Shown: positions 8,736 through 48,969 of the stretch, piece after piece
Numbering within the stretch: position 1 is the stretch's first letter
How the letters are laid out: the number at the start of each line of letters is the position of its first letter
Origin: a virus
Direction: 5' to 3' (one strand)
IMG/VR virus record: IMGVR_UViG_3300010151_005441
Span: 1-49,277 of that record
DNA length: 49,277 bases
Notes under the pieces: generated by a model
Told to the model about the DNA's origin: nothing
Database searches by the model: none
What the model saw: the letters and a program-made list of their open reading frames with translations, nothing else
Program-made: the position numbers and the translations under genes

Positions 8736-9566
8736 ATGAGAAGCATTGTTGCGCTGACGCGCCCAGCGATCAATATAGCATCTTCCTTTGAGGGATATCC
8801 ACAGTATACCGTTTACAAGATATCCAAGCATGCGGGCACTGGGAAACGGGAGTATTGTCTCCCTGTTTTTGAACACCCGGAAAAATATGAAGCAGCGCTC
8901 ATGCCATTAAAGACATTCTTTAAGGGTATCAAGAAAGAGGTATTTTTTATCGTTTGTGGGGCATCAATTGAATCTGCATGTGCGTTGCGTATATTGGAGC
9001 AATTGAAGAATCGAAAAATTTGGATTCTGTATGTCGTTCCGGAAAGAAAATATTTGAACGAGACCGAGCGCCTCAACGAGAGAGCCGTGTTTCATGTGCT
9101 CCAGGAATATGCGCGCTCTGGTGTGTTTGAAAAGTTTTTTATAATTGATAATGCACAAATAGAAAAGATTCTGCACGAACAACTCACCATTAAAGAATAT
9201 TATGAGAAGATTAATGATTTTGTGGCCAGTACTATCCACATGATAAATGTTTTTGATAACACCAAAAGCGAGCTACAAAACAAGTCAGAGCTATCACCTG
9301 CGTCGCGACTCGCAACTTTTGGGGTTGGTACCTTAGAAAGTGGAGATATACCGCTTTTTAATCTTGACAACGTGGAAGAAAAAGAGTATTATTTTGCTAT
9401 TAACAAAGAAAGACTTGGTGAACAAGGCCTGTTAGAGAAAGTGAAAACTTATATGGAAAAAGATACATCCAACGTAAAGATTAATTATCAAATATATTCA
9501 ACAGACTACGATGCAGACTACGTTTATACTGTGCTGCACACGTCAGAAATTCAAAAAAGTGCTTGA
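8736..9566 (+). CDS. Unknown protein, possible divergent tubulin/FtsZ fold
   Basis: 276 aa, ATG two bases after the MazG-like gene. The order of elements recalls FtsZ/tubulin: a first strand and turn (RSIVALTRPAINIASSF, where GxGGxGxN would sit), a second strand (YTVYKIS), a strand ending FFIVCGAS where the Gly-rich T4 loop would sit (about 69-77), then a helix, strand IWILYVVPE, a long helix RAVFHVLQEYARSG, strand KFFIIDNAQ, and a long helix YEKINDFVASTIHMINVF. The canonical Gly-rich nucleotide loops are degraded, so GTP binding is doubtful. The fold call is inference from pattern memory; otherwise it is an uncharacterised phage protein. The -35 box of the SSB promoter overlaps its stop codon. 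Confidence 0.4.
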   Translation: MRSIVALTRPAINIASSFEGYPQYTVYKISKHAGTGKREYCLPVFEHPEKYEAALMPLKTFFKGIKKEVFFIVCGASIESACALRILEQLKNRKIWILYVVPERKYLNETERLNERAVFHVLQEYARSGVFEKFFIIDNAQIEKILHEQLTIKEYYEKINDFVASTIHMINVFDNTKSELQNKSELSPASRLATFGVGTLESGDIPLFNLDNVEEKEYYFAINKERLGEQGLLEKVKTYMEKDTSNVKINYQIYSTDYDADYVYTVLHTSEIQKSA

Positions 9567-9591
9567 CAACCCAGTCGGGCTGTGGTAGATT
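9563..9591 (+). promoter_or_regulatory. Sigma70-type promoter for the SSB gene
   Basis: TTGACA at 9563-9568, a 17-base spacer and TAGATT at 9586-9591, with TG one base upstream of the -10 box (extended -10). Predicted start of transcription is about 9598, giving a leader of about 59 bases. The -35 overlaps the stop codon of the upstream gene. Confidence 0.7.
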
Positions 9592-9656: not shown

Positions 9657-10412
9657 ATGGCTATCAATTTGGACAAGATTAAGGAAAGGAAGGTGGCGTT
9701 GGAGAACCGTGGAGGCGGCAAGAGCAGCTTCTGGCGGCCACAGGATGGCGAGAGTACAATCCGTATTGTGCCGACTGCGGATGGAGATCCTTTTAAGGAT
9801 TTTTGGTTCCACTATAATTTGGGAGACAACCCTGGGTTTCTGTCCCCAAAGAAGAACTTCGGTGAAGACGATCCGTTGGACTCGTTTGTTCGCAAGCTCT
9901 TTAACGAGGGCACCGAAGACAGCATCAAGATGGCGAAGAACTTGATGGCGCGCCAGCGCTTTTTCTCTCCGGTTATTGTACGGGGGGAGGAGGATCAGGG
10001 CGTTCGTATGTGGGGCTACGGGAAGACTGTTTACGAGCAGTTGATTAATCTTGTGCTCAACCCGGAGTACGGTGATATCACTGACCCGGATGCAGGAACT
10101 GATTTGCTGTTGCATTACGGCAAGCCCGCAGGGGCGCAGTTCCCTCAAACGAAGCTGACTCCACGTCGCCGTCCTTCGGCGTTGTGCGAGACCAGCGATG
10201 AACAGTGTGCGGAGTGGCTTGACACCATCCCGGATCTTGAAACGCTCTTTGAGCGCAAGGGTCCAGAGGAAGTAGGAGCTATGCTGGACGCATACTTGCT
10301 TGACGATGCGGAAGGTGTCTCTACTGAGACACAGAAGTTCGGGGGTACCCCCGACGTTGTTACTTCGACCACTTCTACGGTCGACGCAGCGTTTAGCGAG
10401 TTGTTGGGCTAG
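9657..10412 (+). CDS. Single-stranded DNA-binding protein, T4 gp32-like
   Basis: 251 aa with a very strong ribosome-binding site (AAAGGAGG at 9645-9652). The N-terminus (MAINLDKIKERK) is a basic, LAST-like cooperative-binding segment. The core contains GGGKSSFWRPQDGESTIRIV, a typical start of the gp32-like OB fold. The C-terminal third is acidic and ends with TVDAAFSELLG, as in gp32 tails that contact replication partners. I see no clear His-Cys3 zinc cluster, so it may lack the T4 zinc. It coats ssDNA during replication and recombination. It has its own strong promoter and 5' hairpin, consistent with high, self-regulated expression. UvsX follows one gene downstream. Confidence 0.8.
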   Translation: MAINLDKIKERKVALENRGGGKSSFWRPQDGESTIRIVPTADGDPFKDFWFHYNLGDNPGFLSPKKNFGEDDPLDSFVRKLFNEGTEDSIKMAKNLMARQRFFSPVIVRGEEDQGVRMWGYGKTVYEQLINLVLNPEYGDITDPDAGTDLLLHYGKPAGAQFPQTKLTPRRRPSALCETSDEQCAEWLDTIPDLETLFERKGPEEVGAMLDAYLLDDAEGVSTETQKFGGTPDVVTSTTSTVDAAFSELLG

Positions 10413-12092: not shown

Positions 12093-12121
12093 TTGACAAT
12101 CACCTCTGCTCCTGCTAATCT
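12093..12121 (+). promoter_or_regulatory. Promoter for a leaderless deaminase mRNA
   Basis: TTGACA at 12093-12098, a 17-base spacer and TAATCT at 12116-12121 preceded by TGC (extended -10). Exactly six bases separate the -10 from the ATG at 12128, so the expected first transcribed base is the A of the start codon. No Shine-Dalgarno sequence is present. Confidence 0.65.
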
Positions 12122-12127
12122 AGTTGT

Positions 12128-12526
12128 ATGAAGATTAGTAATAAGACGAAGCGGTATCTTTTGCTCGCTCAACGTGTTGCTACTCAGAGCGCTCATGACC
12201 ACTTTAAGCATGGGGCAGTTCTGGTCAAAGGTGGTTCAGTTCTTAATACAGCCTTCAACAAGGATAGCTATAATAGGTTTGGCAATCGCTTTCGAGACAC
12301 ACACACTCGCGGGCATGCAACTCATCACGCTGAACTAGGATGTATCTTGGGCCTCGATCGCTCAATTACAAACGGTGCAACGATGTATGTAATCCGGACT
12401 AACCGCTTAGGGCAGTTTAGGATGTCCAAACCATGTCTAATGTGTGAAGAGGTAATGAAATTTTGTGGGATAAAAAAAGTAGTTTATACTACTGGGGAGA
12501 GTTCGGTTGAAAAAAAGCGACTTTAA
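12128..12526 (+). CDS. dCMP/cytidine deaminase-family enzyme
   Basis: 132 aa. The zinc deaminase motifs are clear: HAE at residues 67-69 (zinc His and catalytic Glu) and PCLMC at 102-106 (two zinc Cys). This is the cytidine/deoxycytidylate deaminase fold; the likely reaction is dCMP to dUMP, feeding the ThyX encoded at 47741. The HATHHAELG context differs somewhat from T4 Cd, so the substrate (dCMP, cytidine or other) is not certain. It appears to be translated from a leaderless mRNA. The downstream exonuclease gene starts 20 bases before its stop. Confidence 0.75.
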   Translation: MKISNKTKRYLLLAQRVATQSAHDHFKHGAVLVKGGSVLNTAFNKDSYNRFGNRFRDTHTRGHATHHAELGCILGLDRSITNGATMYVIRTNRLGQFRMSKPCLMCEEVMKFCGIKKVVYTTGESSVEKKRL

Positions 12527-14355: not shown

Positions 14356-15752
14356 CACCCCAAAAAAACACTCCTCCGCCCGAAGCGGCTTCTTTTTCAA
14401 AGTTTGGAAAAACTTTTCAAGAGGATTTATGTCATCTTATCTTAATTGACCGCCCCTTTGCAGATCAAATATCAGAAGTACTAGCCCCTTCTTTTTTGGA
14501 GCTAAAATATCTTCGGGTCTTTGTCGAGAAAGTTTTTGATTATCGGGAGCGCTATGGGGTGCACCCGACTTGTAAGATCCTTACGACACTGTTTAGGACT
14601 GAACTAGAGGACCACACCGAAGTTGTACAGAAACAGCTTCGGGATTATTTTGCACGAATTTGCCATATGGATATGGGCGTCGAGGGCGCAGAGTATATCA
14701 AGGAAGTATCTCTTGATTTTTGCCGTAAGCAGAAACTTAAAGAAGCAATGCTCCGCTCGGTAGGACTCATCAAATCCTCTTCGTTTGACGAAGTCAGCCA
14801 AATCATTAATGATGCCCTTAAGCTCGGTTCAGACAACCAACATGGCTATGATTACAAGGCTGATTTCGAAGCGCGCTTTACCAAGAAAAGCCGGAACCCT
14901 GTCAGTACCGGGTGGGATAACATTGACGGCATATGTAAGGAGGGGCTTGGTAAGGGAGAGCTTGGGGTCGTTATTGCTCCTACGGGGGCGGGAAAATCCA
15001 TGGTTTTAACTCATTTGGGCGCAGAGGCTTTAAAGAGCGGGAAAAATGTAGTACACTATACACTGGAGTTGGGAGACACTATCATTGCGTCGCGTTATGA
15101 TAGTTGTATTACCGGGGTGCCGCTGGCAGACCTGCTTAGTTTCAAGGAACAAATTTATGAGAAGGTACAAACGATCGAGGCAGCATTGTTCGTTAAAGAA
15201 TACCCGACAAAATCAGCATGCACTAACACGATACGCACTCACTTGGAGAAGTTGAAGAATCGTGACTTCACACCTGATCTAATTATTGTGGACTACGCAG
15301 ATTTGTTACGCCCGAAGACAATAAGGAAGGAGAAGAGGCACGAATTGGAGACGATATATGAAGATCTCCGTGCCATCGCTCAAGAGAACAAGTGCCCTGT
15401 ATGGACAGCGTCTCAGACTAATCGTTCGGGTTTGAATGCGGAAGTGATAACAATGGAATCCATTTCAGAAGCATTTAATAAGTGTTTCGTGGCAGATTTT
15501 ATTTTTTCAGTCTCCCGCACAATCGAGGATAAAACAGCCAACAGTGGGCGGATTCTTATTGCCAAAAATCGTAATGGACCAGACGGCATGATCTATCCTA
15601 TATACATGGACACCTCACGCGTAAAGATCCGAGTGCTAGAGCAGAGCGATGAGACGATTGGGGAGATCAAGGTGGCCTCGGCTAAAGAACAAGCTAAGCG
15701 CCTGAAAGAGAAGTATAAGGAGTTTAAAAAAGACGGAGGGAACGTAAATTGA
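14340..15752 (+). CDS. Replicative DNA helicase, DnaB/gp41-like
   Basis: 470 aa; its ATG lies 16 bases before the end of the FkbM gene. An N-terminal helical domain (about 1-165) is followed by a RecA-type motor. STGWDNIDGICKEGLGKGE leads into Walker A APTGAGKS (213-220), then VVHYTLELGD (H1a-like), Walker B LIIVDYADLL (about 315-324), TASQTNRSGLN (H3) and FIFSVSRT (H4 region). This organisation is that of T4 gp41 and DnaB hexameric 5'-3' helicases. The C-terminal tail is basic. No separate primase or loader is evident in this window. Confidence 0.9.
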   Translation: MDQGVTPQKNTPPPEAASFSKFGKTFQEDLCHLILIDRPFADQISEVLAPSFLELKYLRVFVEKVFDYRERYGVHPTCKILTTLFRTELEDHTEVVQKQLRDYFARICHMDMGVEGAEYIKEVSLDFCRKQKLKEAMLRSVGLIKSSSFDEVSQIINDALKLGSDNQHGYDYKADFEARFTKKSRNPVSTGWDNIDGICKEGLGKGELGVVIAPTGAGKSMVLTHLGAEALKSGKNVVHYTLELGDTIIASRYDSCITGVPLADLLSFKEQIYEKVQTIEAALFVKEYPTKSACTNTIRTHLEKLKNRDFTPDLIIVDYADLLRPKTIRKEKRHELETIYEDLRAIAQENKCPVWTASQTNRSGLNAEVITMESISEAFNKCFVADFIFSVSRTIEDKTANSGRILIAKNRNGPDGMIYPIYMDTSRVKIRVLEQSDETIGEIKVASAKEQAKRLKEKYKEFKKDGGNVN

Positions 15753-18172
15753 ATAACACATATAAGAAAGAAGAGGTGCATGCTGCAACATTAGAGTATT
15801 TCGGTGGTGATGAACTGGCTACCAACGTGTGGATGACGAAATACTGTCTTAAAGACAAGGAAGGAGGCTTTGTAGAGCGTACTCCGGATGACATGCACGA
15901 GCGCCTCGCGGATGAGTTTGCCCGGATAGAGGCAAAATATCAGTCTGATGTGACCCGCGACGATATTTATAATTACCTCAAAGGCTTTGAGTATATTGTC
16001 CCCCAGGGGTCTCCTATGTATGGCGTAGGCAATGATTACGTTAACGCTTCCTTGTCAAACTGCGTTGTTGTAGACATGCCTGCGGACAATATTTCTTCGA
16101 TTATTGATGCAGGTAAAGATTTAGCTAACTTGTTTAAGCGCCGCTGCGGTGTTGGTATCGATGTGTCGAACCTGCGCCCAGAGGGTACGCCTGTCAATAA
16201 TTCGGCTGGCACCACCACTGGAGCCTGGAGCTTTGCTGATTTTTATTCTTATGTGTGTAGGATGATTGGCCAAAACGGACGCCGCGGCGCTTTGATGATC
16301 TCGATGGACATTCGCCATCCAGATATTGAAAAGTTTGTTACCATGAAGCAAGACTTAACGAAGGTTACAGGCGCAAATGTATCGGTCCGGATCTCGGATG
16401 ATTTTATGGAAGCTGTCGAGGCGGACGATGAATTTGTTCTTCGCTATCCCATCAACGGGGGTACGACTCCAGCGTACACCAAGACTATTCGAGCTAGGGA
16501 TCTGTGGTCGGACATTATTGAATCTGCTGCCACTACAGCGGAACCGGGTCTCTTGATGTGGGGGAATATCTTGAAGCGCCTTCCGGCAAACGAGTACGCC
16601 GATCAGGGGTTCAAGACTTTGACAACTAACCCCTGTGGGGAGATCCCCTTGTCGGCGTATGACTCGTGTCGTCTAGTCTCCTTGAATCTTAAGAATTTAG
16701 TACGCAACGCCTTCACACCAGAGTCGACTTTTGATTTTAAGAAGTTCAAGGAGGTGGTGAGGGTGGGGATGCGTCTCTCAGACAACTTGGTCGAATTGGA
16801 ATTAGAAAAGTTAGAGAAGATCATACAAAAGTGCGACACAGATGACGAGAAGGAACTTTGGAAAAAGCTGTTGAGTGCTTGTGCCCAAGGGCGCCGGACT
16901 GGTCTCGGAACCCATGGTCTAGCTGACGCCATTGCGTGCCTTGGTCTGCGATATGACAGCGCGGAAGCCGTCAAGGTGGTTGATAAGATCTATAAAACTC
17001 TCAAAGAGACAGCCTATGATGAGAGCGCAAATCTGGCTCAAGAAAGAGGAGCCTTTCCCGTCTTCGATTGGGCTGCAGAAAAACACAACTCCTATATTCG
17101 CGATCTGCCAAAATTTTTACAGGACAAAATTTCCAGACTTGGAAGAAGGAACATTTCTATTTTAACGAATGCACCCACTGGTTCAGTTTCGATTCTCTCA
17201 CAGACGAGTTCAGGGTTAGAGCCAGTCTTTCGTAACTGGTATATCCGACGACGCAAGCTGTCTCACAATGAACAGAGCGCACATGCCGACTTTGTCGACG
17301 ATCTGGGAGACCGCTGGGTGGAATATAAAGTTTACCATCACAACGTTACAGATTATTTAAATAACTTTGACACCGAAGAAGTTCCTGACTTTTTTGTTAC
17401 ATCAGAGGAAATTGATTGGCAAAAGCGTGTAGAGGTTCAGGCCGCCATCCAGCATCATATTGACCATTCAATTTCTTCTACTATTAATTTACCTGCGAAG
17501 ACAAAACCTGAAATTGTAGGAGAACTATATTTCCAAGCTTGGAAAAAGGGTCTTAAGGGAGTGACGGTATATGTGGATGGAAGCCGCAGCGGAGTGCTTG
17601 TCACTAAGCCTTCTAACAGTGATTCATCATTCCCTCAATACGATGCTCCGAGTCGGCCTGAAATGTTGGAGTGTGATATCTATCATACAACTATCTCTGG
17701 AGAAAAGTGGGTGGTTCTCGTAGGGCTCCTTGACGGTCGCCCTTATGAGGTGATGGGGGGGCTAGCGTCGCTGATCGAGATTTCTAAGAAATATACGCGG
17801 GGTTTGCTCACTAAGCGGATCCGCAAAACGATGCCGTCTATCTATGATCTCCAATACGGGGAGGACGATGATACAACCGCTATTAAAGACATAGTAAAAG
17901 TTTTTGACAACCCCAATCACTCTGCTTTTACGCGAGTAATTTCATTGACTCTTCGTCATGGTGCAAAGATTAACTTTTTAGTAGAACAGTTACAAAAAGA
18001 CAAAGACTCGGATATGTTTAGTTTTTCACGCTGCATCGCTCGCGTCCTTAAAAATTATATCAAAGATGGGACGCTAGCAACCGACTTATGTTCCGAGTGT
18101 GGTACTGACGGACTCGTGTATATCGAAGGGTGCCAGACGTGCAAAGACTGCGGGTTTGCAAAATGTGGCTAA
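15749..18172 (+). CDS. nrdJ: Adenosylcobalamin-dependent (class II) ribonucleotide reductase
   Basis: 807 aa from a TTG overlapping the helicase stop by four bases, with GGAGGG just upstream. Key residues are visible: the first redox Cys in LSNCVVVDMP (C105), partner Cys in YDSCRLVSLN (C307), thiyl-radical Cys in NPCGEIPL (C296), and the PTGSVSILSQTSSGLEP phosphate-binding stretch. The C-terminus has paired Cys (CSECG ... CQTCKDCG) that regenerate the active-site disulfide. With no small radical subunit nearby, these features fit the B12-dependent NrdJ class. It makes deoxynucleotides without oxygen but needs host cobalamin. The GroES-like gene follows directly. Confidence 0.9.
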   Translation: MNNTYKKEEVHAATLEYFGGDELATNVWMTKYCLKDKEGGFVERTPDDMHERLADEFARIEAKYQSDVTRDDIYNYLKGFEYIVPQGSPMYGVGNDYVNASLSNCVVVDMPADNISSIIDAGKDLANLFKRRCGVGIDVSNLRPEGTPVNNSAGTTTGAWSFADFYSYVCRMIGQNGRRGALMISMDIRHPDIEKFVTMKQDLTKVTGANVSVRISDDFMEAVEADDEFVLRYPINGGTTPAYTKTIRARDLWSDIIESAATTAEPGLLMWGNILKRLPANEYADQGFKTLTTNPCGEIPLSAYDSCRLVSLNLKNLVRNAFTPESTFDFKKFKEVVRVGMRLSDNLVELELEKLEKIIQKCDTDDEKELWKKLLSACAQGRRTGLGTHGLADAIACLGLRYDSAEAVKVVDKIYKTLKETAYDESANLAQERGAFPVFDWAAEKHNSYIRDLPKFLQDKISRLGRRNISILTNAPTGSVSILSQTSSGLEPVFRNWYIRRRKLSHNEQSAHADFVDDLGDRWVEYKVYHHNVTDYLNNFDTEEVPDFFVTSEEIDWQKRVEVQAAIQHHIDHSISSTINLPAKTKPEIVGELYFQAWKKGLKGVTVYVDGSRSGVLVTKPSNSDSSFPQYDAPSRPEMLECDIYHTTISGEKWVVLVGLLDGRPYEVMGGLASLIEISKKYTRGLLTKRIRKTMPSIYDLQYGEDDDTTAIKDIVKVFDNPNHSAFTRVISLTLRHGAKINFLVEQLQKDKDSDMFSFSRCIARVLKNYIKDGTLATDLCSECGTDGLVYIEGCQTCKDCGFAKCG

Positions 18173-20881: not shown

Positions 20882-23800
20882 TTGAAACGAAAAAAGAATG
20901 AAATTCCATTTGTGAATTTCCACTCTCACACCACTTTCTCGGCTTTTGACGGGATGGGATACCCCGAGGCTCACATGGAGAACGTATGGGGAAACGGCGG
21001 TGATGCCATGGCAATTACTGATCATGGCAATATGAATAGCCTCGGATATCAGGTTGAGGCATTTCACAAAATGGCTCAAGAGGGCAAAGAGTTTAAACCT
21101 ATTTTTGGAATTGAGGCATATTTTATCCCCTCGGTAGCCAATTGGAAAGACGACTATCTTAATGCCCGTGAGGAAAAGAAAAAGCAAGAAAAGGGGAACA
21201 TCGTTATTGAGGATGAAGACCGGAAGAAGTATAAGAATATTCTTAACCAGCGCCGACACCTTATTCTGTTAGCCCAAAATGAAACAGGGCTAAAAAATCT
21301 TTTCAAGATGGTTTCAAAGTCCTTTCGCGGAGACAACTTCTATCGCTTCCCACGCATGGATTACAATCTTCTTCGGAAGAATAGTGAGGGTGTTATCGCA
21401 GCTAGCGCATGCATGAGCGGTATTTATAGCGGGTGTTATTGGCAAAACCGTGAGGAGGGCGACGAGGCCATCCTGGCAAACATGCGCCAGACGACCGAAA
21501 AGATGCAAAGAATTTTTGGGGATCGCTGGTACGCCGAGCTACAGTGGAATGCAATCCCGGAACAACACGAGATTAACAAATATATCATTCAGGTTGCCAG
21601 GGAATTTGGCGTAGACTTGATTTCTACCGCAGACAGTCACTACCCCTCTCAGGATACATGGCGCGATCGGGAGTTGTACCGGCGCCTGGGGTGGTTGGGA
21701 AAGAGTAGCCGCCCGGGCTGGATGTCAAACGAATTGCCAGCCGACATCGAAGAGGTGGGCTATGAGCTTTATCCTAAAAACGGCGATCAGATGTGGGAGG
21801 CATATCAACATTATTCCAAGAAGATGAACATCGCGTATGATGACAAGCTGGTACTCGATAGCATCGAAAGAACTCATCATATCGCACACGATAGGATCGA
21901 GTCCTTTCTTCCTAACACTGATGTGAAACTGCCATCGTTTGTCGTCCCACAGGGAAAGAGCGCGGACCAAGCGCTTGCCGCCATGTGTGTTTCCGGGCTC
22001 AAGACGCTCGGCCTAGGCAACGACAACGAATATGTGGAACGGCTAAAAGAAGAGGTTCACGTAATCAAAGATCGTGGCTTCTCAAAATATTTCTTGACGA
22101 TGAAGGCAATTGCCGACAAGGCAACAGACCGCCAACTAGTCGGCCCCGGTAGAGGTTCAGCGGCCGGCGCTCTGACAGCCTACGTACTTGGGATCACACA
22201 GGTCGATCCGATTCAGTATGGCTTGCAATTCGAGAGGTTTTTGCGGAAAGACGCAACAGACTATCCCGATATTGATTATGATGTGTCAGATCCTATGAAG
22301 CTGAAAGAGCACTTGATTGATGAGTGGGGGGAGAACTCTGTAGTTCCTATCTCCAATTGGAATACCTTGCAGTTACGCAGCCTCATTAAAGATATCTCTA
22401 AGTTTTATGATGTGCCGTTTACAGAAGTAAACTATGTTACGAACCGTATGATGGCTGAGGCAACGCCTACAGCAAAGAAGGCGCACGGGATCAAGGCAGG
22501 CGTTTATACTCCGACATTCGATGAGGTGATGGCGTACAGTCCAACTCTTCAGCAGTTCTTGTCTAAGTACCCGCATATTGAAACCCATGTTAACGCTTTG
22601 TACGGGCAGGTGCGCTCATGTAGTAGGCATGCCGGCGGTGTTGTAATTGCTGAGAACCTAGATGAACATATGCCGCTGATTAATAGTGGCGGGGTTACTC
22701 AATCTCCATGGACAGAGGGTCAACACGTCCGCCACTTAGAGCCGCTGGGTTTCATCAAATTCGATATTCTTGGCTTGGCGTCTTTGAGGATGATCGAGGG
22801 AGCGATATCTCATATCCTGAAACGCCACAAAGGGATCCCTGAACCGACATTTGAAGATATCCAAAAATACTACAATGAGAATCTTCATCCCGATGTTGTC
22901 AATCTCAATGAGCCCTCCGTTTATGAGAATGTATTCCACAAGGGGAAGTGGGCCGGCATATTCCAGTTCACGGAACAAGGCGCGCAAAAGTTTTGTGTTA
23001 ATGTTAAGCCCAATAACATCATCGATTTGGCAGCTATTACCTCTATCTATCGTCCTGGGCCCCTGAGCGCTGGTGTCGATAAACAGTACGTGCGGGCAAA
23101 AATGAATCCGGATGAGGTTGTATATCCTAGCGAGGAGGTACGAGAGGTCACAGAAGAAACGGCCGGGTTCTTAATTTTTCAAGAACAAATTGCCGAACTG
23201 GCTCACAAACTTGGACACGGAATCTCACTAGACGAAGGGAACAAGCTGCGGAAACTTCTCACAAAAAAGGGTGTTGCAGGAGTAGAAGCGCAGAAGAATA
23301 AGATCAAAGGGAAATTTATCCAGGGGTGTGCGTCAAAAGGTATTTCCCAATCGGAGGCCTCACACCTGTGGGACACCTTTGAATACTTTTCAGGGTATGG
23401 TTTTAATAAATCGCATGCTGTTTCTTATTCCATACTTTCATATCAGTGCGCGTGGTTGTTACACCACTACCCCTCAGAATGGGTAGCCGCTTTCCTAGAC
23501 AAAGAACCGGAGAGTCGTAAAGAAAAGGCGATCAACATCGCTAAATCTCTAGGGTTTACAATTGCCCCTCTGGACGTGAATGCGTCCGGGACAGTTTGGG
23601 ATATTTCTGCTGATGGGCATACTCTGATCCAGCCGCTTACCTCCATCAAAGGTTTAGGAGAAGCAGCAATTAAACAGATACTGAGTAATCGGCCGTTTGA
23701 GACCGTAGAAGATTTTATCTTCAACGAGGGTATCACTTACAGCAAATTGAATAAAAAGGCGCTAGATGTCTTGTGCCGCGGCAACGCGTTAAACGAATTG

Positions 23801-24289
23801 GTAGATGAGAGATTTAGTGGTCTGAAACATTTTTGGTCCGCATGTGTTGTGGACCGCCCTAAGAACAAAAATAAGTTAGCCGACAATATTGAAAAATATA
23901 GACCCGAAGGTGAGTTTGAGGACGAAGAAAAGATCCAACACCTTGTAGAACTCACGGGGGTATACCCTCTTAACTTGGTCATGGGCCCCGATTTGGTGGA
24001 AAAGCTACAGGAAAAATATATTCCGAGAATTTCTGAGTACGACCCTGAATTACAGGTGGCGTGGTTTATACCACGTAAAATTGTTCCAAAGAAAACCAAA
24101 AATGGTAAAGACTACTGGATTGTGGAAGTGATTGACGATTCTAGCGTCATGACACGGATCCGGTGCTGGGGTGTCAGGAACACAGATATGTTATTGGTCA
24201 ATCGACCTTATATGGCGAAACTCGATTACAGTGAAGACTGGGGGTTTAGTACACGCTCGATTAGACATAATTTTAGGATGTTAGCATGA
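20882..24289 (+). CDS. dnaE: DNA polymerase III alpha subunit, DnaE type (family C)
   Basis: 1135 aa, about the length of bacterial DnaE. An N-terminal PHP domain begins at about residue 10 (FVNFHSHTTFSAFDG, then AITDHGN). The family C catalytic core follows: PGRGSAAGALTAYVLGIT (about 421-438) and PDIDYD (about 461-466) with the catalytic aspartates. Further typical blocks are SCSRHAGGVVIA, GIFQFTEQGAQKF, YRPGPLSAG and GYGFNKSHAVSYSILSYQ. A C-terminal OB-like region ends around IRCWGVRN. No proofreading DnaQ domain is fused. It is probably the main replicase of this phage, in place of the T4-type family B enzyme. It has its own promoter and a TTG start. dUTPase follows with an ATGA overlap. 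Confidence 0.93.
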   Translation: MKRKKNEIPFVNFHSHTTFSAFDGMGYPEAHMENVWGNGGDAMAITDHGNMNSLGYQVEAFHKMAQEGKEFKPIFGIEAYFIPSVANWKDDYLNAREEKKKQEKGNIVIEDEDRKKYKNILNQRRHLILLAQNETGLKNLFKMVSKSFRGDNFYRFPRMDYNLLRKNSEGVIAASACMSGIYSGCYWQNREEGDEAILANMRQTTEKMQRIFGDRWYAELQWNAIPEQHEINKYIIQVAREFGVDLISTADSHYPSQDTWRDRELYRRLGWLGKSSRPGWMSNELPADIEEVGYELYPKNGDQMWEAYQHYSKKMNIAYDDKLVLDSIERTHHIAHDRIESFLPNTDVKLPSFVVPQGKSADQALAAMCVSGLKTLGLGNDNEYVERLKEEVHVIKDRGFSKYFLTMKAIADKATDRQLVGPGRGSAAGALTAYVLGITQVDPIQYGLQFERFLRKDATDYPDIDYDVSDPMKLKEHLIDEWGENSVVPISNWNTLQLRSLIKDISKFYDVPFTEVNYVTNRMMAEATPTAKKAHGIKAGVYTPTFDEVMAYSPTLQQFLSKYPHIETHVNALYGQVRSCSRHAGGVVIAENLDEHMPLINSGGVTQSPWTEGQHVRHLEPLGFIKFDILGLASLRMIEGAISHILKRHKGIPEPTFEDIQKYYNENLHPDVVNLNEPSVYENVFHKGKWAGIFQFTEQGAQKFCVNVKPNNIIDLAAITSIYRPGPLSAGVDKQYVRAKMNPDEVVYPSEEVREVTEETAGFLIFQEQIAELAHKLGHGISLDEGNKLRKLLTKKGVAGVEAQKNKIKGKFIQGCASKGISQSEASHLWDTFEYFSGYGFNKSHAVSYSILSYQCAWLLHHYPSEWVAAFLDKEPESRKEKAINIAKSLGFTIAPLDVNASGTVWDISADGHTLIQPLTSIKGLGEAAIKQILSNRPFETVEDFIFNEGITYSKLNKKALDVLCRGNALNELVDERFSGLKHFWSACVVDRPKNKNKLADNIEKYRPEGEFEDEEKIQHLVELTGVYPLNLVMGPDLVEKLQEKYIPRISEYDPELQVAWFIPRKIVPKKTKNGKDYWIVEVIDDSSVMTRIRCWGVRNTDMLLVNRPYMAKLDYSEDWGFSTRSIRHNFRMLA

Positions 24290-32433: not shown

Positions 32434-34008
32434 GTGCCTAAAGTATATGAATCTGACCAAGCCCTACACCATAAGATCCTAGAGGGAGTCAATATCCTAA
32501 CAGACAATGTGGCCTCTACACTGGGGCCCAAGGGTCGAAACGTAATCCTACATCAGAAAGACAGGAATCCGATCATCACGAAGGACGGTGTGACTGTTGC
32601 CAACTTCGTAGACTTTGATGACCCTGTTAAAAACCTCGGCGCACAGATCATTAAGCAAGCGAGCCAGGAAACTAATAACGTTGCAGGTGATGGCACCACC
32701 ACGGCCACTGTTCTGACACGCGGGATCCTGTGCGCCGCACAAAAGTTTATCTCTTCTGGGGTACCCCCTAATGAAATCAAGAAAGGGATTGAGCAGGCGG
32801 TGAAGCTGATATGTGAGAAGTTAGGCGACATGTCGTCGCCTATTTCAACGGAAGAAGATATCCAACACGTAGCGTCTATTTCGGCTAACGGTGACAAAAC
32901 TATTGGTAAAATGATTGCAACTGCTGTCGACGCCATTGGCAAGGATGGCACCATCACTGTTGAAGAGGGGCGCTCAATTGACACGACTCTTGATGTGATA
33001 GAAGGTTTCAGGTTTGATTCAGGGTATGCGGCCCAGGCTTTTGTGACGGACGAGAGAAAAAACCTTGTCAAACATAATAATGTTTTAATTCTGGTTACGG
33101 ACAATGCCCTAGAGTCTGTGGAACAGATGCTACCAACTCTGGAAATTGCTGCGCGCGCAGGTCAGCCCCTAATTGTGGTGGCTGACACCATAGAGGGCCA
33201 AGCACTAGCGGCCTTGATTATGAATTCGGTGCGTGGCACAATGAAGGTGGTGGGAGTGAAGGCTCCGCGTTATGGTGAGGAAAGACGCAATATTTTGAGC
33301 GACTTAGCGGTGGCTACGGGTGCAACATTTATCACCCGAGAGGCTGATGTCTCTTTGGAAGATGTACGCTTGGAGCACCTGGGAAAGGCAGCTTCTGTAG
33401 AAGTACTAAAAAACTTCACCACCATTGTGGGTGGCACCCCGGATCTCGACGCTCTAGACCTGCGGATAGAGAACTTAAAAGAAACAATTAAACAGACAGA
33501 TGATCTTTATGAGTGCGAAAAGCTGCAAGAAAGAATTGTTCGGTTATCGAGTGGAGTAGCCGTTATCAGAGTAGGGGCTCACACGGAGGTAGAGATGATA
33601 GAAAAAAAGCACCGCATCGAAGATGCTTTAGAGGCAGTCCGGTCGGCACAATTGGAAGGTATTGTCCCCGGGGGCGGCGTTGCTCTAGTCCGCTGCGCAC
33701 AAAAATTGAAAAAAGTTAAGACCGAAAATAATATGCAAAGCATCGGGGTAGAAATTGTACGGGATGCGGTACGCGAGCCGTTACGCCAAATGGCTATTAA
33801 CGCTGGCGAGTCTCCTGATGTGATCCTTGCAAGTGTTGAAAAACAGAAGGGGAATAGGGGTTATGATTTTGCGACCGGCAAGATAGTAGATCTGGTGGAG
33901 GCTGGGATACTGGATCCTGTTAAGGTCACCAAGACCGCCCTTCAAAACGCGGCGTCCGTCGCAGGGACCCTTTTGACCACAAATCATGCTATCGTCCAGG
34001 TCGATTAG
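32434..34008 (+). CDS. groEL: GroEL chaperonin
   Basis: 524 aa from a GTG with AAAGGAGG upstream. Family blocks are intact: TLGPKGRNVIL (about 29-39), the ATP-binding GDGTTTATVL (85-94), IVVADTIEGQALAAL, GVKAPRYGEERRNILSDLA (apical and intermediate domains), the catalytic Asp in KKHRIEDALEAVRSA, and IVPGGGVAL. The Gly-Gly-Met C-terminal tail of E. coli GroEL is absent, making it 24 residues shorter. It forms a double-ring ATP-driven folding cage, probably with the phage GroES-like protein at 18183. Phage-encoded full GroEL is uncommon; host GroEL is normally recruited. Confidence 0.95.
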   Translation: MPKVYESDQALHHKILEGVNILTDNVASTLGPKGRNVILHQKDRNPIITKDGVTVANFVDFDDPVKNLGAQIIKQASQETNNVAGDGTTTATVLTRGILCAAQKFISSGVPPNEIKKGIEQAVKLICEKLGDMSSPISTEEDIQHVASISANGDKTIGKMIATAVDAIGKDGTITVEEGRSIDTTLDVIEGFRFDSGYAAQAFVTDERKNLVKHNNVLILVTDNALESVEQMLPTLEIAARAGQPLIVVADTIEGQALAALIMNSVRGTMKVVGVKAPRYGEERRNILSDLAVATGATFITREADVSLEDVRLEHLGKAASVEVLKNFTTIVGGTPDLDALDLRIENLKETIKQTDDLYECEKLQERIVRLSSGVAVIRVGAHTEVEMIEKKHRIEDALEAVRSAQLEGIVPGGGVALVRCAQKLKKVKTENNMQSIGVEIVRDAVREPLRQMAINAGESPDVILASVEKQKGNRGYDFATGKIVDLVEAGILDPVKVTKTALQNAASVAGTLLTTNHAIVQVD

Positions 34009-34316: not shown

Positions 34317-34345
34317 TTGACATTTCCTTTAAAAACCATTAAACT
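34317..34345 (+). promoter_or_regulatory. Promoter for a leaderless mRNA at 34352
   Basis: TTGACA at 34317-34322, a 17-base spacer and TAAACT at 34340-34345; six bases later comes the ATG at 34352, so transcription is expected to start at its A. No Shine-Dalgarno sequence. The -10 is weak (4 of 6). Confidence 0.6.
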
Positions 34346-34351
34346 GGATAT

Positions 34352-34666
34352 ATGAAGGTTAAGATACAAAAGGTAGTCGATCTAGAACTTGTCCCCGAGG
34401 AATTCCACAAAGAGATAGAACCCTTGTTCAGAAGGTTAGCGACAGTTGTTGCTGAGTTGGACAAGCTCCAAACACAAGCCCCCCTGTTGGCTTCTTTCGG
34501 GGGCGCTGAGGTTGTGTGTGTCGGGATCGATAAGGCCCGGCGCGCCTTATATGAGGTTGATAATGTTTTAGATGGCTGGCTGGCAATTGCTCTCGACCTA
34601 CACAGTGCTCTTAAAGAAGAAGAAGAACATCAAGACTCGCAAAAGGAGGAAGAAGATGGTAATTAA
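34352..34666 (+). CDS. Hypothetical helical protein, leaderless start
   Basis: 104 aa. It is almost wholly helical with an acidic, Glu/Asp-rich C-terminus (ALKEEEEHQDSQKEEEDGN). No membrane segment or catalytic motif. It is the first of four short overlapping genes of unknown function before Hsp20. Its promoter places the transcription start on the ATG. Confidence 0.6.
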   Translation: MKVKIQKVVDLELVPEEFHKEIEPLFRRLATVVAELDKLQTQAPLLASFGGAEVVCVGIDKARRALYEVDNVLDGWLAIALDLHSALKEEEEHQDSQKEEEDGN

Positions 34667-35707: not shown

Positions 35708-35735
35708 TTGACAACCCTCTATGGATGATTATATT
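35708..35735 (+). promoter_or_regulatory. Promoter for the Hsp20 gene
   Basis: TTGACA at 35708-35713, a 16-base spacer and TATATT at 35730-35735. Predicted start about 35742 gives a leader of about 43 bases with AGGAGG just upstream of the ATG at 35785. Hsp20 and the terminator downstream form a one-gene unit. Confidence 0.7.
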
Positions 35736-35784: not shown

Positions 35785-36183
35785 ATGAGTTTGATTCGAT
35801 ATACAAGGAACGAGCCGTTTTTTAACATTTTGGATGATTTCTTTCCGGCCAGAGATCACAGGAACTTTTCATCGTTTAACACCGATAAGCACGTACGCGT
35901 ACAAGATTTTGATGACCGTACCGAGATCAGTGTTGCAGCCCCAGGGCTTAACAAGGAGGTGTTCAAGGTTGATCTCGCCAACAGCGTGTTGACAGTGGGG
36001 TATACCACTGAGGGTGATACAACCCCCTTTTTCACTCAAGGATCTTTCAGCCGTTCGTGGCGTGTTGATCGAGAAGCAACATCAGAGGATGTTAGTGCGA
36101 CATATGAAAATGGGGTACTAGTGGTCACTGTTAATAAGGTTGCCACTCCTGAGGCCTCCGTTACATCTATCACTGTTAATTAA
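35785..36183 (+). CDS. Small heat-shock protein, Hsp20/alpha-crystallin
   Basis: 132 aa. The alpha-crystallin domain covers about 33-125: ISVAAPGLNKEVFKVDL is the conserved second strand region, GSFSRSWRVDREA the middle, and ATYENGVLVVTV matches the A-x-x-x-n-G-v-L hallmark. A short C-terminal tail (VTSITVN) may act as the I-x-I/V oligomer anchor. It would hold unfolded proteins without ATP, working with the phage GroEL and DnaJ. It has its own promoter and a strong terminator, so it can be expressed independently. Confidence 0.87.
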   Translation: MSLIRYTRNEPFFNILDDFFPARDHRNFSSFNTDKHVRVQDFDDRTEISVAAPGLNKEVFKVDLANSVLTVGYTTEGDTTPFFTQGSFSRSWRVDREATSEDVSATYENGVLVVTVNKVATPEASVTSITVN

Positions 36184-36215
36184 AATAAAGACATACTATA
36201 ATTACTCTCCGTTCG

Positions 36216-36243
36216 GGCCCCCCTTTTGGGGGGCCTTTTTTTT
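36216..36243 (+). terminator. Strong rho-independent terminator after Hsp20
   Basis: GGCCCCCC at 36216-36223 pairs with GGGGGGCC at 36228-36235 around a TTTT loop, followed by eight T residues. It is the only classical strong intrinsic terminator seen in the window. Confidence 0.95.
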
Positions 36244-36287: not shown

Positions 36288-39179
36288 ATGATTCCGACTG
36301 ATCTTCTATTTAAAAAATGGCGCGCCTATTCTGTTCCTGACGATATCTTAAACGAACAGCTTTTAGTTGAAAGTCGCTATACTGATGCGGTAGCCACTGC
36401 TACAAACTTAAAGCGCATCCTGTCTCCGGGCCTCCGGGCCCAGTTATCAGAGGAACAACAAGACGAAATAGGACGCATCATCGCCGCGGCCCTCAAGGCA
36501 GTATCTAAAAGTGACCCCACAGGCCAGAACGCCTATCTTCCGTGGGTTGCAAAAGCGACAAGGACTTATCTTAAGAAACGGTTTGATGAATTAGAACGAC
36601 GCGTCAGAGCTACCGCCGCCCACGACGGCAGGGGGGCCGCAGCCGACGTCATACGCGATTATTTCCCCTCTATTTTAGAGAGCATGGTAAGTCGTCTTGA
36701 CCGGTTAGCCGCTGAGCCATCATATAGCAGGTCGCCGTCGCTCCACCGGTTTCATACACTGCGTGAACGAAATCTGGTGCCCTCGATTGAATTATTCAAG
36801 ACCTATGAAGAATACACACTTGCTGTGGATCAAGCTACGAACGAAGGCAACCGTCGAGATAACGAAATAGAACAATCCAAAGGGGCAGAAGCCGGCACAG
36901 ACATGTTGGTGGACGACGATGAATTTCAAATGATGCGCCCGCTTAACACAGCCGCTTCCTGCAAGTATGGTCAAGGTACGAAGTGGTGCACCGCGGCCTC
37001 GACGTCGCATAATTATTATGACCAATACACCGGCGAAGGAAAAGCTTTTTACTATCTCACTTTTAAAAACCTGATGCCCAATGATGAACAGCGTCAATTG
37101 GCTCTGGTCTATACCAACACCGATAACTACCCCAGCCGGGGGTACGACGACGGCGCGCCAGAAGAGGTGTATGATCGGGTCGATGACGAAGTTGGAGAAG
37201 GGGCTGTGTACGAAGCAGCCTTCCGCAACGCTATAGCAGGGCCCCTGAAAGAGCTTCCGTTTTATCAGGAGCTTGTGGCGAGGTACAAGAGCGAAATAAA
37301 ACTCATGGAAAAGGAAATAAAATCCTTGAGAAGTGAGCTTGGCCACGATAGCTCCTCAACAGTACTGGAAAAGTACCCCTGGATTGATTTAAGCGCCGCA
37401 CAACAAGAGAACGCAAGGGCCGCCGGCGATGTACGTACCGGCCCCAATCCACAGTTCCTCAGTGCTAAAGAGCGAGAGGAAACTTTAAAAGCTCAAGGAA
37501 AGCAAGATCAGTTGGACGCGGAGCAAAGATTGTTTGATGTCGAGGGAGAGCTTAAAGATAAAAAGAAAGAGATGGTGGATGAGATTGAACACTTGGTTAC
37601 TTCCACCGAAGAGACGCTGAGCCGGGGATACACAGAGGGTTCGGAGGGGACCGAGACCGAGTCGTTGGGTCCGCTCCTCAAAGAACTGGCTAAGTCGTTG
37701 CAGATTCAAGTAACTGGAGAAGAGCCTGTCGACGACTTGGCGGGCGCCGGGCCCGACGGGGTTGATACGATAGGAGAGTTATACGAAATAATCAAAGAAA
37801 CCTCCGACGAACAAGTTTCAGAAATATTTGGTAACGCCTCATACAATCTTGAGAATAACCCCGCGGGCCCCTCCCCGGAAGATTTTGATAAGATACTGTC
37901 CGAGTTTGATTATAAGCATATTTACGTTAACGAGCCTGACGATCATGGTGAGGGGCGGTATTATTGGAGTGCCGGCGCCACGATCGACCTTGATGCACTC
38001 ATTGAAGAAGATGAGTGGGCAACCGATGATGACTACGAGATTGCTGATGTTGCTGGTAAGGTTTTAGACGACCACAACATATACCCCAGTGAAACACGCA
38101 TTGAGTCCTACGGAGGCCAACATGAATTGTACATGGACTTCTCTCCCGACTACAACGAAACTGATGGCCTTGACGGCTTTGAAAGATTCTGCAACACGAT
38201 GGCCGAATACGATGACGAACTGGACAGGATCAGCGAGGAAGACTGGCGTGAGGCGTTCGCTGAGGCGGACGTGATCTCCACTCCGGCGACTGCAAATGTA
38301 GCGGAACAATTTAACGAATTAAACCTTGAGCATTTTCAAGTGGATGTAGAGAAGAATCAAATAGAAATTGCAACCGCTCTCCAACCTACGATCACACTTC
38401 CACCCTGGGTTTGGGAAACCGACAACCCCTTGAAAGCCCGGCAGGATATTTGGGAGTATTTATACTCTGGCCCCGCCGGGAACCATGTTCAAGAAACTTT
38501 TATAAAAAAGATGCATGGTTTTATTGCGAGGGAATTAAAGTTTATGTTAGCCCAAGCAACTATCCCTGGGATCGGCGGCTCCCCCGATTTTGGCGAAGAT
38601 GAAGCCCTGGAGCAACTCGTGGTTCAATTTGCTAATGGAGGCATCAACTTAAATTTGCTCAATGTGCACGACTTTATTAAAAAAGCAGAGGGATCAGCCA
38701 TGTCCCTCGGCCGTGCGGGTCATCGAGGGACATCACAGGTTGATTACTGGTTTCAGATTGAGATTAATATGAAAAGGGATGGTACGGACCCCGAGGAGAT
38801 CCCGATTCTAAAAAACCTAGCCCGGTACCTAGATCAAGACCGCGTTTATAAATGGATTGGCTCATATTTAGAAAAAACAATTAATGATTTCCTGAGGGGG
38901 CTTGATTACCGTGAACACGTTTTGCTTAACACGACTCCTGCAGCTGCAGAGGCCAAGCGCAAATCTAAAGAGGCTGAAGCTAAATGGATTCAAGACAGGA
39001 AGGACGCCCACCACCGGACCATGGCTGCTAGCCACCGCGAGCTTGGCCGAGACGGCCCCGCAACAGCGCCCCCTACCACTGTACAAGCCGGTGAGTCCAT
39101 CCCCGGTGTATTCGGGGAGCCCGAGGATTTGAGCGAGTCATTGATTTTTGAGGTTGAAAAGCTTTTGAGAAATCTATGA
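36288..39179 (+). CDS. Large uncharacterised protein with CxYGxGTKWCTA motif
   Basis: 963 aa, ATG preceded by AAGG at 36278-36281. Residues about 215-245 contain AASCKYGQGTKWCTAAS followed by NYYDQYTGEGKAFYYLTFKN. The YG-x-GT-x-WC motif, with an aromatic strand after it, is one I recall from large uncharacterised phage proteins. Further on are a charged coiled-coil block (about 325-430), an acidic central region with many Asp, and a C-terminal domain ending in LSESLIFEVEKLLRN. There is no signal peptide or membrane segment. Its size and the terminator upstream suggest a separate transcription unit. Possible roles are an injected head protein or an enzyme with the WC motif; neither is shown. 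Confidence 0.6.
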   Translation: MIPTDLLFKKWRAYSVPDDILNEQLLVESRYTDAVATATNLKRILSPGLRAQLSEEQQDEIGRIIAAALKAVSKSDPTGQNAYLPWVAKATRTYLKKRFDELERRVRATAAHDGRGAAADVIRDYFPSILESMVSRLDRLAAEPSYSRSPSLHRFHTLRERNLVPSIELFKTYEEYTLAVDQATNEGNRRDNEIEQSKGAEAGTDMLVDDDEFQMMRPLNTAASCKYGQGTKWCTAASTSHNYYDQYTGEGKAFYYLTFKNLMPNDEQRQLALVYTNTDNYPSRGYDDGAPEEVYDRVDDEVGEGAVYEAAFRNAIAGPLKELPFYQELVARYKSEIKLMEKEIKSLRSELGHDSSSTVLEKYPWIDLSAAQQENARAAGDVRTGPNPQFLSAKEREETLKAQGKQDQLDAEQRLFDVEGELKDKKKEMVDEIEHLVTSTEETLSRGYTEGSEGTETESLGPLLKELAKSLQIQVTGEEPVDDLAGAGPDGVDTIGELYEIIKETSDEQVSEIFGNASYNLENNPAGPSPEDFDKILSEFDYKHIYVNEPDDHGEGRYYWSAGATIDLDALIEEDEWATDDDYEIADVAGKVLDDHNIYPSETRIESYGGQHELYMDFSPDYNETDGLDGFERFCNTMAEYDDELDRISEEDWREAFAEADVISTPATANVAEQFNELNLEHFQVDVEKNQIEIATALQPTITLPPWVWETDNPLKARQDIWEYLYSGPAGNHVQETFIKKMHGFIARELKFMLAQATIPGIGGSPDFGEDEALEQLVVQFANGGINLNLLNVHDFIKKAEGSAMSLGRAGHRGTSQVDYWFQIEINMKRDGTDPEEIPILKNLARYLDQDRVYKWIGSYLEKTINDFLRGLDYREHVLLNTTPAAAEAKRKSKEAEAKWIQDRKDAHHRTMAASHRELGRDGPATAPPTTVQAGESIPGVFGEPEDLSESLIFEVEKLLRNL

Positions 39180-45043: not shown

Positions 45044-45072
45044 TTAAAAAACTATAGTCGCTGTTGTATAAT
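45044..45072 (+). promoter_or_regulatory. Promoter for a leaderless mRNA at 45079
   Basis: TTAAAA at 45044-45049, a 17-base spacer and perfect TATAAT at 45067-45072. The ATG at 45079 follows after six bases, so transcription should begin at its A. No Shine-Dalgarno sequence. Confidence 0.6.
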
Positions 45073-45078
45073 GAATTT

Positions 45079-45354
45079 ATGGATGTAGGATTTTTAAAAT
45101 TACACGATCTCCACACACGTGTACTTGAAACATGTGAATGGGATGAAGAGGTTACAGCTCTTCTCATTGCTAAGGGCCTACAGGTTTACATTGATCTATA
45201 TGAATATTCACAGCACGATGCCTCCCTTATTAAAGGCGAGGAAGACTTTGATCGTCTTTTTCGGGTGAACATGGGCGAGGATCTTCGTGAGGACCAGCTG
45301 ACGGCCGTAAAAGAACTTATAGATGTGCGCTTAAAACATACTATTAAGAAGTAG
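45079..45354 (+). CDS. Hypothetical helical protein, leaderless start
   Basis: 91 aa. The ATG at 45079 is chosen because the in-frame TTG at 45064 lies inside the -10 promoter box. The protein is largely helical and acidic, with FLKLHDLHTRVLETCEWDEE at the start and LTAVKELIDVRLKHTIKK at the end. No family is recognised. Confidence 0.65.
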   Translation: MDVGFLKLHDLHTRVLETCEWDEEVTALLIAKGLQVYIDLYEYSQHDASLIKGEEDFDRLFRVNMGEDLREDQLTAVKELIDVRLKHTIKK

Positions 45355-47740: not shown

Positions 47741-48439
47741 TTATGTTGTTAGACGCTCTTTCCACGCCTCTACGGCCACCGGGAACAGTTCGGATGTAAT
47801 CTGTAATACAGCACTACCTACTTTTTGGATTTCCCACTGTGCGTGGGAATCAAGACGCAAATCCACAAATTTGAGGATATTATTTAGGTTGGCCGTACCG
47901 TAGTATTCCGTGTACATATTTTGAGGAAGCACCCCTCTGGCTTGTTCTCGGCACACTCCCGCGGCGATGAGTTCTTTATACAGAGATACGCACCCTACAT
48001 GGTGTGCCCTAATCTTATCGTTGGCGAGTATATAGAAATATCCCTCAAGCTCCGGATTGATTTGAGTGTGCGGGTCCGAAGCCTGCCGATTAGAGGCGTG
48101 TTGCTCCCTAAACATAGAGGGTTCATAGAACCGGAGGTTCTCATCGGTGTACCGCCGGCTAATTTCATTATAGGACCATGTGCGGTGACGGTGATGTTGA
48201 CTTCGTACAAAGAGTGGCACTGTAAATTTAAATGTAACTACGTTGTGTTCCAGCGTCGAGGTGTGACGGTTGTTCACAAGATATTTGATGAGCTTTTTAT
48301 CTTTTGGATTAAGGCTCTCTTTAGTGCGGCCGAACGACACTCTCGCTGCGTTGACGATGGTTAGATCGTCTCCCATAAAATTTACGAGTTCCACGGCGCC
48401 GATGTTATCGTCATAAATTTTAATTTTTTTATTTTTCAT
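47741..48439 (-). CDS. thyX: Flavin-dependent thymidylate synthase
   Basis: 232 aa. The ThyX signature RHRTWSYNEISRRY spans 84-97, with QHHRHR before it, NAARVSFGR near 30-38, and RGVLPQNMYTEYYGTANLNN further on. It methylates dUMP to dTMP using FAD and methylene-tetrahydrofolate. With NrdJ, dUTPase and the deaminase, it completes a pyrimidine supply route. The ATG sits 14 bases after the tRNA 3' end on the same strand, with no ribosome-binding site in between, so tRNA and thyX appear to share a transcript. Confidence 0.93.
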   Translation of the reverse strand: MKNKKIKIYDDNIGAVELVNFMGDDLTIVNAARVSFGRTKESLNPKDKKLIKYLVNNRHTSTLEHNVVTFKFTVPLFVRSQHHRHRTWSYNEISRRYTDENLRFYEPSMFREQHASNRQASDPHTQINPELEGYFYILANDKIRAHHVGCVSLYKELIAAGVCREQARGVLPQNMYTEYYGTANLNNILKFVDLRLDSHAQWEIQKVGSAVLQITSELFPVAVEAWKERLTT

Positions 48440-48453
48440 TTTTTTTGTTGGAG

Positions 48454-48526
48454 CACCCTCGGTAGGATTCGAACCTACAGTCTACGGATTAGAAGTCCGT
48501 TGCATTGTCCGTTATGCTACGAGGGC
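48454..48526 (-). tRNA. tRNA-Arg (anticodon TCT)
   Basis: 73 bases fold as a full cloverleaf: acceptor GCCCTCG with CGAGGGT (one G-T pair) and discriminator G; D arm GCAT/ATGC; anticodon stem ACGGA/TCCGT with loop CTTCTAA (anticodon TCT at plus-strand 48491-48493); T arm GTAGG/CCTAC with TTCGAAT. CCA is not encoded. It reads AGA and AGG codons, perhaps compensating for a host poor in them. The 5' half overlaps the end of the coding sequence at 48489-48743. Confidence 0.95.
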
Positions 48527-48743
48527 AGTCGGGCACCTGTAGCAAATGTGCCATGAGGGTTGCTTCTTGTCCCGCCCGCGGGCCCGCCTGCCACACTACT
48601 TTGGCCATTGGTGTGTAGATTTTTTTACGTACCTTGCAAGCGCAAGGTTCCCACCCGCAGCAGCGTGACGGTGGATCCACTGAAAGAACAACACAGTAGT
48701 TATCTGTATTTTTTTGTTTGGCTAGGGTTCCAGTTTCGAGCAT
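48489..48743 (-). CDS. Small Cys-rich SH3/KOW-like protein overlapping the tRNA
   Basis: 84 aa. The ATG at 48743 lies exactly six bases after the -10 of a TTGACA promoter (leaderless). LETGTLAKQKNTDNYCVVLS and AKVVWQAGPRAGQEATLMAH fit the barrel pattern, with a Cys cluster (RCCGWEPCAC) that may bind zinc. From PDCPRSITDNATDF it is encoded by the tRNA 5' half; its TAA stop is in the anticodon loop. The last 13 residues may thus be an accident of tRNA placement. Confidence 0.6.
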   Translation of the reverse strand: MLETGTLAKQKNTDNYCVVLSVDPPSRCCGWEPCACKVRKKIYTPMAKVVWQAGPRAGQEATLMAHLLQVPDCPRSITDNATDF

Positions 48744-48749
48744 ACATTT

Positions 48750-48778
48750 ATATTAACACAGTTGTCCCAGCATGTCAA
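48750..48778 (-). promoter_or_regulatory. Promoter for the leaderless 48489-48743 gene, tRNA and thyX
   Basis: On the minus strand: TTGACA (plus 48773-48778), a 17-base spacer, TAATAT (48750-48755) preceded by TGT, then six bases and the ATG at 48743-48741. Expected start of transcription is the A of ATG. It would drive the overlapped tRNA and thyX too. Confidence 0.65.
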
Positions 48779-48969
48779 GGAGAAACCACTGTTAAATTTT
48801 TTTCTTCTTCAAGGCTCTTGGTATTGTCTTGCCACTGAACAATGTAAAGGCGATGGCTATAGACCGTGGGCGGATAAGACTCCACTACAAGACCAGTTTT
48901 GATCGTGGTGCTGGAGGCACCGAGACGGAAATAACCAGCGAAGCGCACAAGGACCCCGGGTTTAAGCAT
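48775..48969 (-). CDS. Small SH3/KOW-like protein
   Basis: 64 aa, ATG overlapping the end of the upstream minus-strand gene, with GAGGT upstream. LKPGVLVRFAGYFRLG, TGLVVESYPP and LYIVQWQDNTK show the shared barrel pattern. Its stop overlaps the -35 box of the next promoter. Confidence 0.62.
   Translation of the reverse strand: MLKPGVLVRFAGYFRLGASSTTIKTGLVVESYPPTVYSHRLYIVQWQDNTKSLEEEKNLTVVSP

Follow-up and report, generated by a model that had tools for sequence, protein, structure and literature searches.

Promoters ending six bases before ATG point to leaderless expression of several genes in an uncultured phage

A leaderless mRNA begins with its start codon, and its translation needs no Shine-Dalgarno (SD) site (PMC3160421, PMC9031893, PMC12340547). 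In the viral record IMGVR_UViG_3300010151_005441, all 49,277 nucleotides of which are referred to here as the window, the -10 element of a promoter ends exactly six bases before the ATG of a deaminase gene. Does this placement serve a leaderless mRNA, and does it recur at other genes of this phage and its relatives? Judging by the dataset type of the relatives, the phage is probably marine. An earlier note had reported the same geometry at four start codons, and we analyzed the following features.

12093..12098, + strand: -35 element TTGACA of the deaminase promoter; TTGACA or TTGACT in 11 of 11 conserved homologues
12113..12121, + strand: extended -10 element TGC-TAATCT, six bases to ATG; seen in the sequence and in homologues
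12128..12526, + strand: dCMP deaminase ORF, 132 aa, proposed leaderless (PF00383, E = 1.4e-12; phrog_174, E = 2e-18)
34317..34322, + strand: -35 element TTGACA, from sequence and pattern scan
34340..34345, + strand: -10 element TAAACT, six bases to ATG
34352..34666, + strand: 104-aa ORF of a helical family 3' of phage GroEL, proposed leaderless (hmmsearch, alignment, helical model with pLDDT 86.6)
45044..45049, + strand: weak -35 element TTAAAA
45067..45072, + strand: -10 element TATAAT, six bases to ATG
45079..45354, + strand: 91-aa ORF, possible leaderless start, the weakest of the four
48773..48778, - strand: -35 element TTGACA, whose TGA is the stop codon of the preceding open frame 48775-48969(-)
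48750..48758, - strand: extended -10 element TGT-TAATAT, six bases to ATG
48489..48743, - strand: 84-aa SH3-like ORF, proposed leaderless (homologue in locus L265; barrel-like model)
48453-48526, - strand: tRNA-Arg (TCT), overlapping the 3' end (last codons) of the 48743 ORF
9563..9591, + strand: comparison promoter (spacer 17) with a 65-nt leader and AAGGAGG, gp32-like SSB gene (ATG 9657)
35708..35735, + strand: comparison promoter (spacer 16) with a 49-nt leader and AGGAGG, Hsp20-like gene (ATG 35785)
28852: comparison promoter (spacer 16) with a 35-nt leader to 28915

Promoters and SD sites in the window

The exact geometry is present at three of the four sites, namely 12093(+), 34317-34354(+) and 48778-48741(-), each of which reads TTGACA (6/6), 17 bases, a TANNNT element (TAATCT, TAAACT and TAATAT, respectively), six bases and ATG. 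The site of the 45079 ORF has a perfect TATAAT at six bases with a -35 element matching at 4/6 positions, so that a -10 element of the form TANNNT lies six bases before the start codon at all four sites, and a TTGACA at 17 bases from it at three. The extended TG of the earlier description is found at 12093, one base 5' of the -10 element, and at 48778, and is missing from 34317 and 45044. At the 12093, 34317 and 48778(-) sites, the preceding frame is codirectional with the gene and has its stop codon 41, 38 and 31 bases upstream, respectively.

A search of the 49,277-base record for TTGACA-N17-TANNNT-N6-ATG gives three matches, and one for the reversed pattern gives none; 300 dinucleotide shuffles of the record also gave no match. 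The earlier note had held chance to be unlikely, and had stated beforehand that a spacing no more frequent genome-wide than in shuffled controls would speak against its proposal; the excess we obtained is strong. It is equally right about SD sites: at the four starts, no more than three bases match the anti-SD sequence, whereas at least four do so at 36 of 54 window gene starts hand-picked from the ORF list. The remaining TTGAC[AT] promoters before credible window genes have long leaders (65, 49 and 35 nt).

Homologues and distance profile in related viruses

We compared the four genes with their relatives. The start codon of the deaminase aligns among relatives, and both the 17-base spacer and the distance of six are kept in 11 of 12 distinct homologues from IMG/VR relatives with 68-100% amino-acid identity. 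These 11 retain TTGAC[AT] and TANNNT, and the letters of the spacer and of the following six bases have diverged. The single exception is L095 (68% identity), which does not keep the geometry. Among homologues at about 61% identity and below, the geometry is mostly missing; the L028 homologue (53% identity) shows a distance of 5 and a spacer of 16.

About 38 small proteins have genes lying a few hundred bases 3' of phage GroEL genes. An hmmsearch profile built from them recovered the 34352 ORF (E = 2.3e-10), with its first residue aligned. In the closest relative, L098 (GroEL 75% identical), the start codon is a GTG and the promoter abuts it at distance 6. An abutting promoter without an SD site is present in the window, L098 and L141 at distance 6, and in L142 and L149 at distance 7; a promoter followed by an AGGAG-type leader is present in L099, L101, L104, L105, L119 and L132; and many other members have an SD site alone, without a nearby promoter. 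As far as the sequences tell, the start of this family occurs in both leaderless-layout and SD-led forms, with the SD site absent where the promoter abuts the start. The abutting form is that of the closest relatives, and the SD-led forms are those of more distant members. Within this family, natural leaderless and leadered versions of a single gene can be compared. Predicted helical proteins of about 100 aa regularly follow phage GroEL (about 38 loci plus window 34352-34666); a GroEL-related role for them is a guess.

The 48743 ORF has a homologue at L265:4449-4697(-) with 43% identity, whose promoter lies six bases from a GTG and which overlaps no tRNA. A structure search with the 84-aa protein gave only marginal SH3-like matches (best E = 0.011), and its model is barrel-like. 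One promoter may serve both this ORF and the tRNA-Arg. More generally, related phages each encode several small 'GDLV...GLV' proteins, predicted to be SH3-like barrels, and many of these genes carry a promoter of their own at six bases; sites are L259 354(-) and 903(+), L263 16162(+) and 19352(+), L264 2994(+), L265 3207(-), 4732(-) and 5164(-), and window 48489-48743(-). In L264, ACG replaces the first ATG ahead of some SH3-like start codons (distance 9).

For the 91-aa ORF at 45079, a single homologue was found, in one related record (G001:5434-5688(-), 47% identity); it is extended at the N-terminus and lacks an abutting promoter. A leaderless start at 45079 is thus no more than possible, and its position is not backed by homologues. 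The relatives of the 34352 and 48743 ORFs came from GroEL- and RNR-fetched loci; direct virome scans with the three small ORFs returned no matches. Homologues back the start positions at 12128, 34352 and 48743, and the spacing they keep for the deaminase, the post-GroEL ORF and the 48743 ORF lends support to the leaderless mRNA that the earlier note proposed.

To obtain the distance profile, we scanned about 4 Mb of viral DNA from related loci, a partly overlapping and non-random sample fetched by RNR, GroEL, ThyX and deaminase similarity. The search pattern was TTGACN-N17-TANNNT upstream of an ATG that opens an ORF of at least 40 codons, and the ORFs were clustered by shared 3-mers, some clusters being related. 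Distance 6 yielded 33 ORF clusters, or 31 after two read through tRNA genes were dropped (about 22 families by eye), compared with 1-4 clusters at distances 0-5, 8 and 10-14, 9 at distance 7 and about 10 at distance 9. The distance-6 families include the deaminase, an exonuclease, a 460-aa protein, a DNA-methyltransferase-like protein and several SH3-like proteins. SD-like 4-mers precede 3 of the 33 distance-6 clusters versus 112 of 177 leadered ones (p = 4e-9). In the related loci, spacers of 15, 16 and 18 gave no peak at distance 6. We rejected the distance-9 excess as a separate class, as it consists largely of ATGATG starts, and likewise the small spacer-19 peaks at distances 4 and 7, which we attribute to the same sites shifted by two bases. 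With RTG as the start codon, the pattern matched 36 times in 23 whole related records, and its reverse not at all.

The arrangement is also seen in viromes. In an arbitrary set of other virome contigs with a perfect TTGACA-N17-TATAAT, the matches listed include at least 11 ORF starts at distance 6 and at least 7 at distance 7; most of the remaining short distances have 0-3 among the matches listed. This indicates that the layout may be common in viromes. Two other properties did not set the distance-6 ORFs of the related loci apart: the first 40 nt of their RNA are not less structured than those of leadered ORFs (p = 0.37), and the extended -10 element is not specific to them (p = 0.19).

Leaderless transcription, its alternatives and known systems

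Where would RNA synthesis begin at these promoters? Of the 177 leadered promoters of related loci, 92 have A as the seventh base after the -10 element, more than at any other of positions 3-10, and 104 have a pyrimidine as the sixth. In 30 of 33 distance-6 clusters, a pyrimidine likewise precedes the ATG. An A-rich seventh base behind a pyrimidine fits initiation at the A of ATG for a distance of six, as would be expected from the start seven bases after the -10 element assumed in the earlier note. Sites 12093, 34317 and 48778(-), and less surely 45044, are therefore very probably sigma-70-type promoters whose RNA has the A of ATG, or a base one or two positions from it, as its first nucleotide, giving leaderless transcripts. 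We infer the following course: the host sigma-70 polymerase would initiate at the A of ATG, the transcript would have no leader, and the ribosome would recognize the 5'-terminal AUG rather than an SD site. This arrangement fits the whole promoter into an intergenic gap of about 31-41 bases and is the most compact one. These genes should need a promoter of their own, since RNA read through from upstream offers no SD site for them.

The promoters could also be real and initiate one to three bases away from that A, giving a near-leaderless RNA that has a very short leader and is translated alike. Some homologues at distance 5 or 7, and several SH3-like genes of G005 that read ...TACGATG at distance 9, are in keeping with such a shift, which we nevertheless consider unlikely given the peak at exactly six and the pyrimidine before ATG, both of which favor the A of ATG. 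Slightly less likely still is translation mainly from read-through operon mRNA, SD-independent or by re-initiation, with the abutting promoter adding transcripts or serving downstream genes. The close, codirectional preceding stops at the three strong sites would allow it, yet it does not account for a distance fixed at six bases, for the recurrence of this distance in many families or for the SD leaders of homologues without an abutting promoter.

That some sites are promoters of tRNA genes or unannotated RNAs, the ATG being incidental, appears improbable. The two tRNA-traversing clusters among the 33 and the overlap of the 48743 ORF with tRNA-Arg are what this explanation would predict; against it, the homologue of the 48743 ORF in L265 is free of such an overlap and the deaminase is a recognizable enzyme. 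Least probable of all is a chance arrangement in an AT-rich gap. When any -35 sequence is allowed, TANNNT six bases before ATG is indeed not in excess in the window (11 versus roughly 8 per distance), but once the -35 element is included the shuffles yield nothing and the related sequences show a roughly tenfold peak. Chance is thereby contradicted at 12093, 34317 and 48778(-), though not at 45079. Leaderless transcription from these promoters therefore remains our preferred reading.

Leaderless genes with an adjacent -10 element are already known in bacteria and in single phage cases. For the cI gene of phage lambda, a host promoter drives a leaderless transcript. The present sites resemble cI in combining a phage gene, a host promoter and a leaderless transcript, here proposed from sequence; they differ in that cI is a single repressor gene of a temperate phage, whereas here a nucleotide-metabolism enzyme and small orphan proteins share a layout found across families (the cI mRNA is mentioned in PMC3160421 and PMC9031893). 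In Deinococcus-Thermus, Actinobacteria and others, leaderless genes carry a TANNNT -10 element adjoining the ORF (PMC3160421, PMC12340547). There too, the -10 element ends a few bases before the start, no SD site is present and the transcript is expected to begin at or near AUG. In contrast, the genes studied here have a strong -35 element and a spacer of 17, belong to a phage genome and form a proposed leaderless minority among SD-led genes.

Among actinobacteriophages, a leaderless gene has been predicted in Adephagia (gene 90; PMC11373665), and gene 86 of Streptomyces phage Sham reads TTGACA-17-TATACT-6-ATG. In both, the promoter position would put the transcription start on the annotated start codon, as here. 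Their hosts, however, are actinobacteria, in which leaderless genes are known to be common, whereas here most window genes are SD-led. Of six cultured phages, only Sham gave an annotated leaderless start, at the one of its two matches that was compared with the annotation. PA5oct was discarded as an example since its three distance-6 matches are not annotated gene starts, and GAP32 since its match count is near its control count. Phage transcripts in general are described as often leaderless in a paper on phage AR9 (PMC5312081). The host search found no close cultured phage, and an RNR scan for the host gave no useful bacterial contig.

What the present work adds, as read from sequence comparison, is the conserved use of the layout at several genes in an SD-using phage lineage, together with orthologues that switch between leaderless and SD-led forms and the hint that viromes commonly contain the layout. 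A broader reading falls a little short of an even call: strong sigma-70 leaderless expression may be a standard alternative to SD leaders in many uncultured double-stranded DNA phages, evolutionarily interchangeable with them, with orthologues switching and virome consensus promoters falling into two distance groups, 6-7 and longer leaders. If leaderless starts of this kind are real, promoter position alone would suffice to call start codons and small genes of environmental phages, and callers that rely on SD sites would misplace or miss some of them. Such a phage would then use two modes of translation initiation within a single host, and its leaderless genes would rely on promoters of their own, not on operon read-through.

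Other features of the window

The window also encodes the following proteins.

15749-18172: RNR large subunit, best match B12-dependent enzymes
20882-24289: DnaE-type polymerase
32434-34008: GroEL
35785-36183: Hsp20-like protein
47741-48439, - strand: ThyX

A strong terminator-like hairpin, GGGCCCCCCTTTTGGGGGGCC, followed by a T run, lies at 36215-36236, upstream of a 963-aa ORF at 36288. A perfect palindrome, TCGGGGGTACCCCCGA, occupies 10339-10354 in the 3' part of the SSB gene and is listed as terminator-like on both strands.
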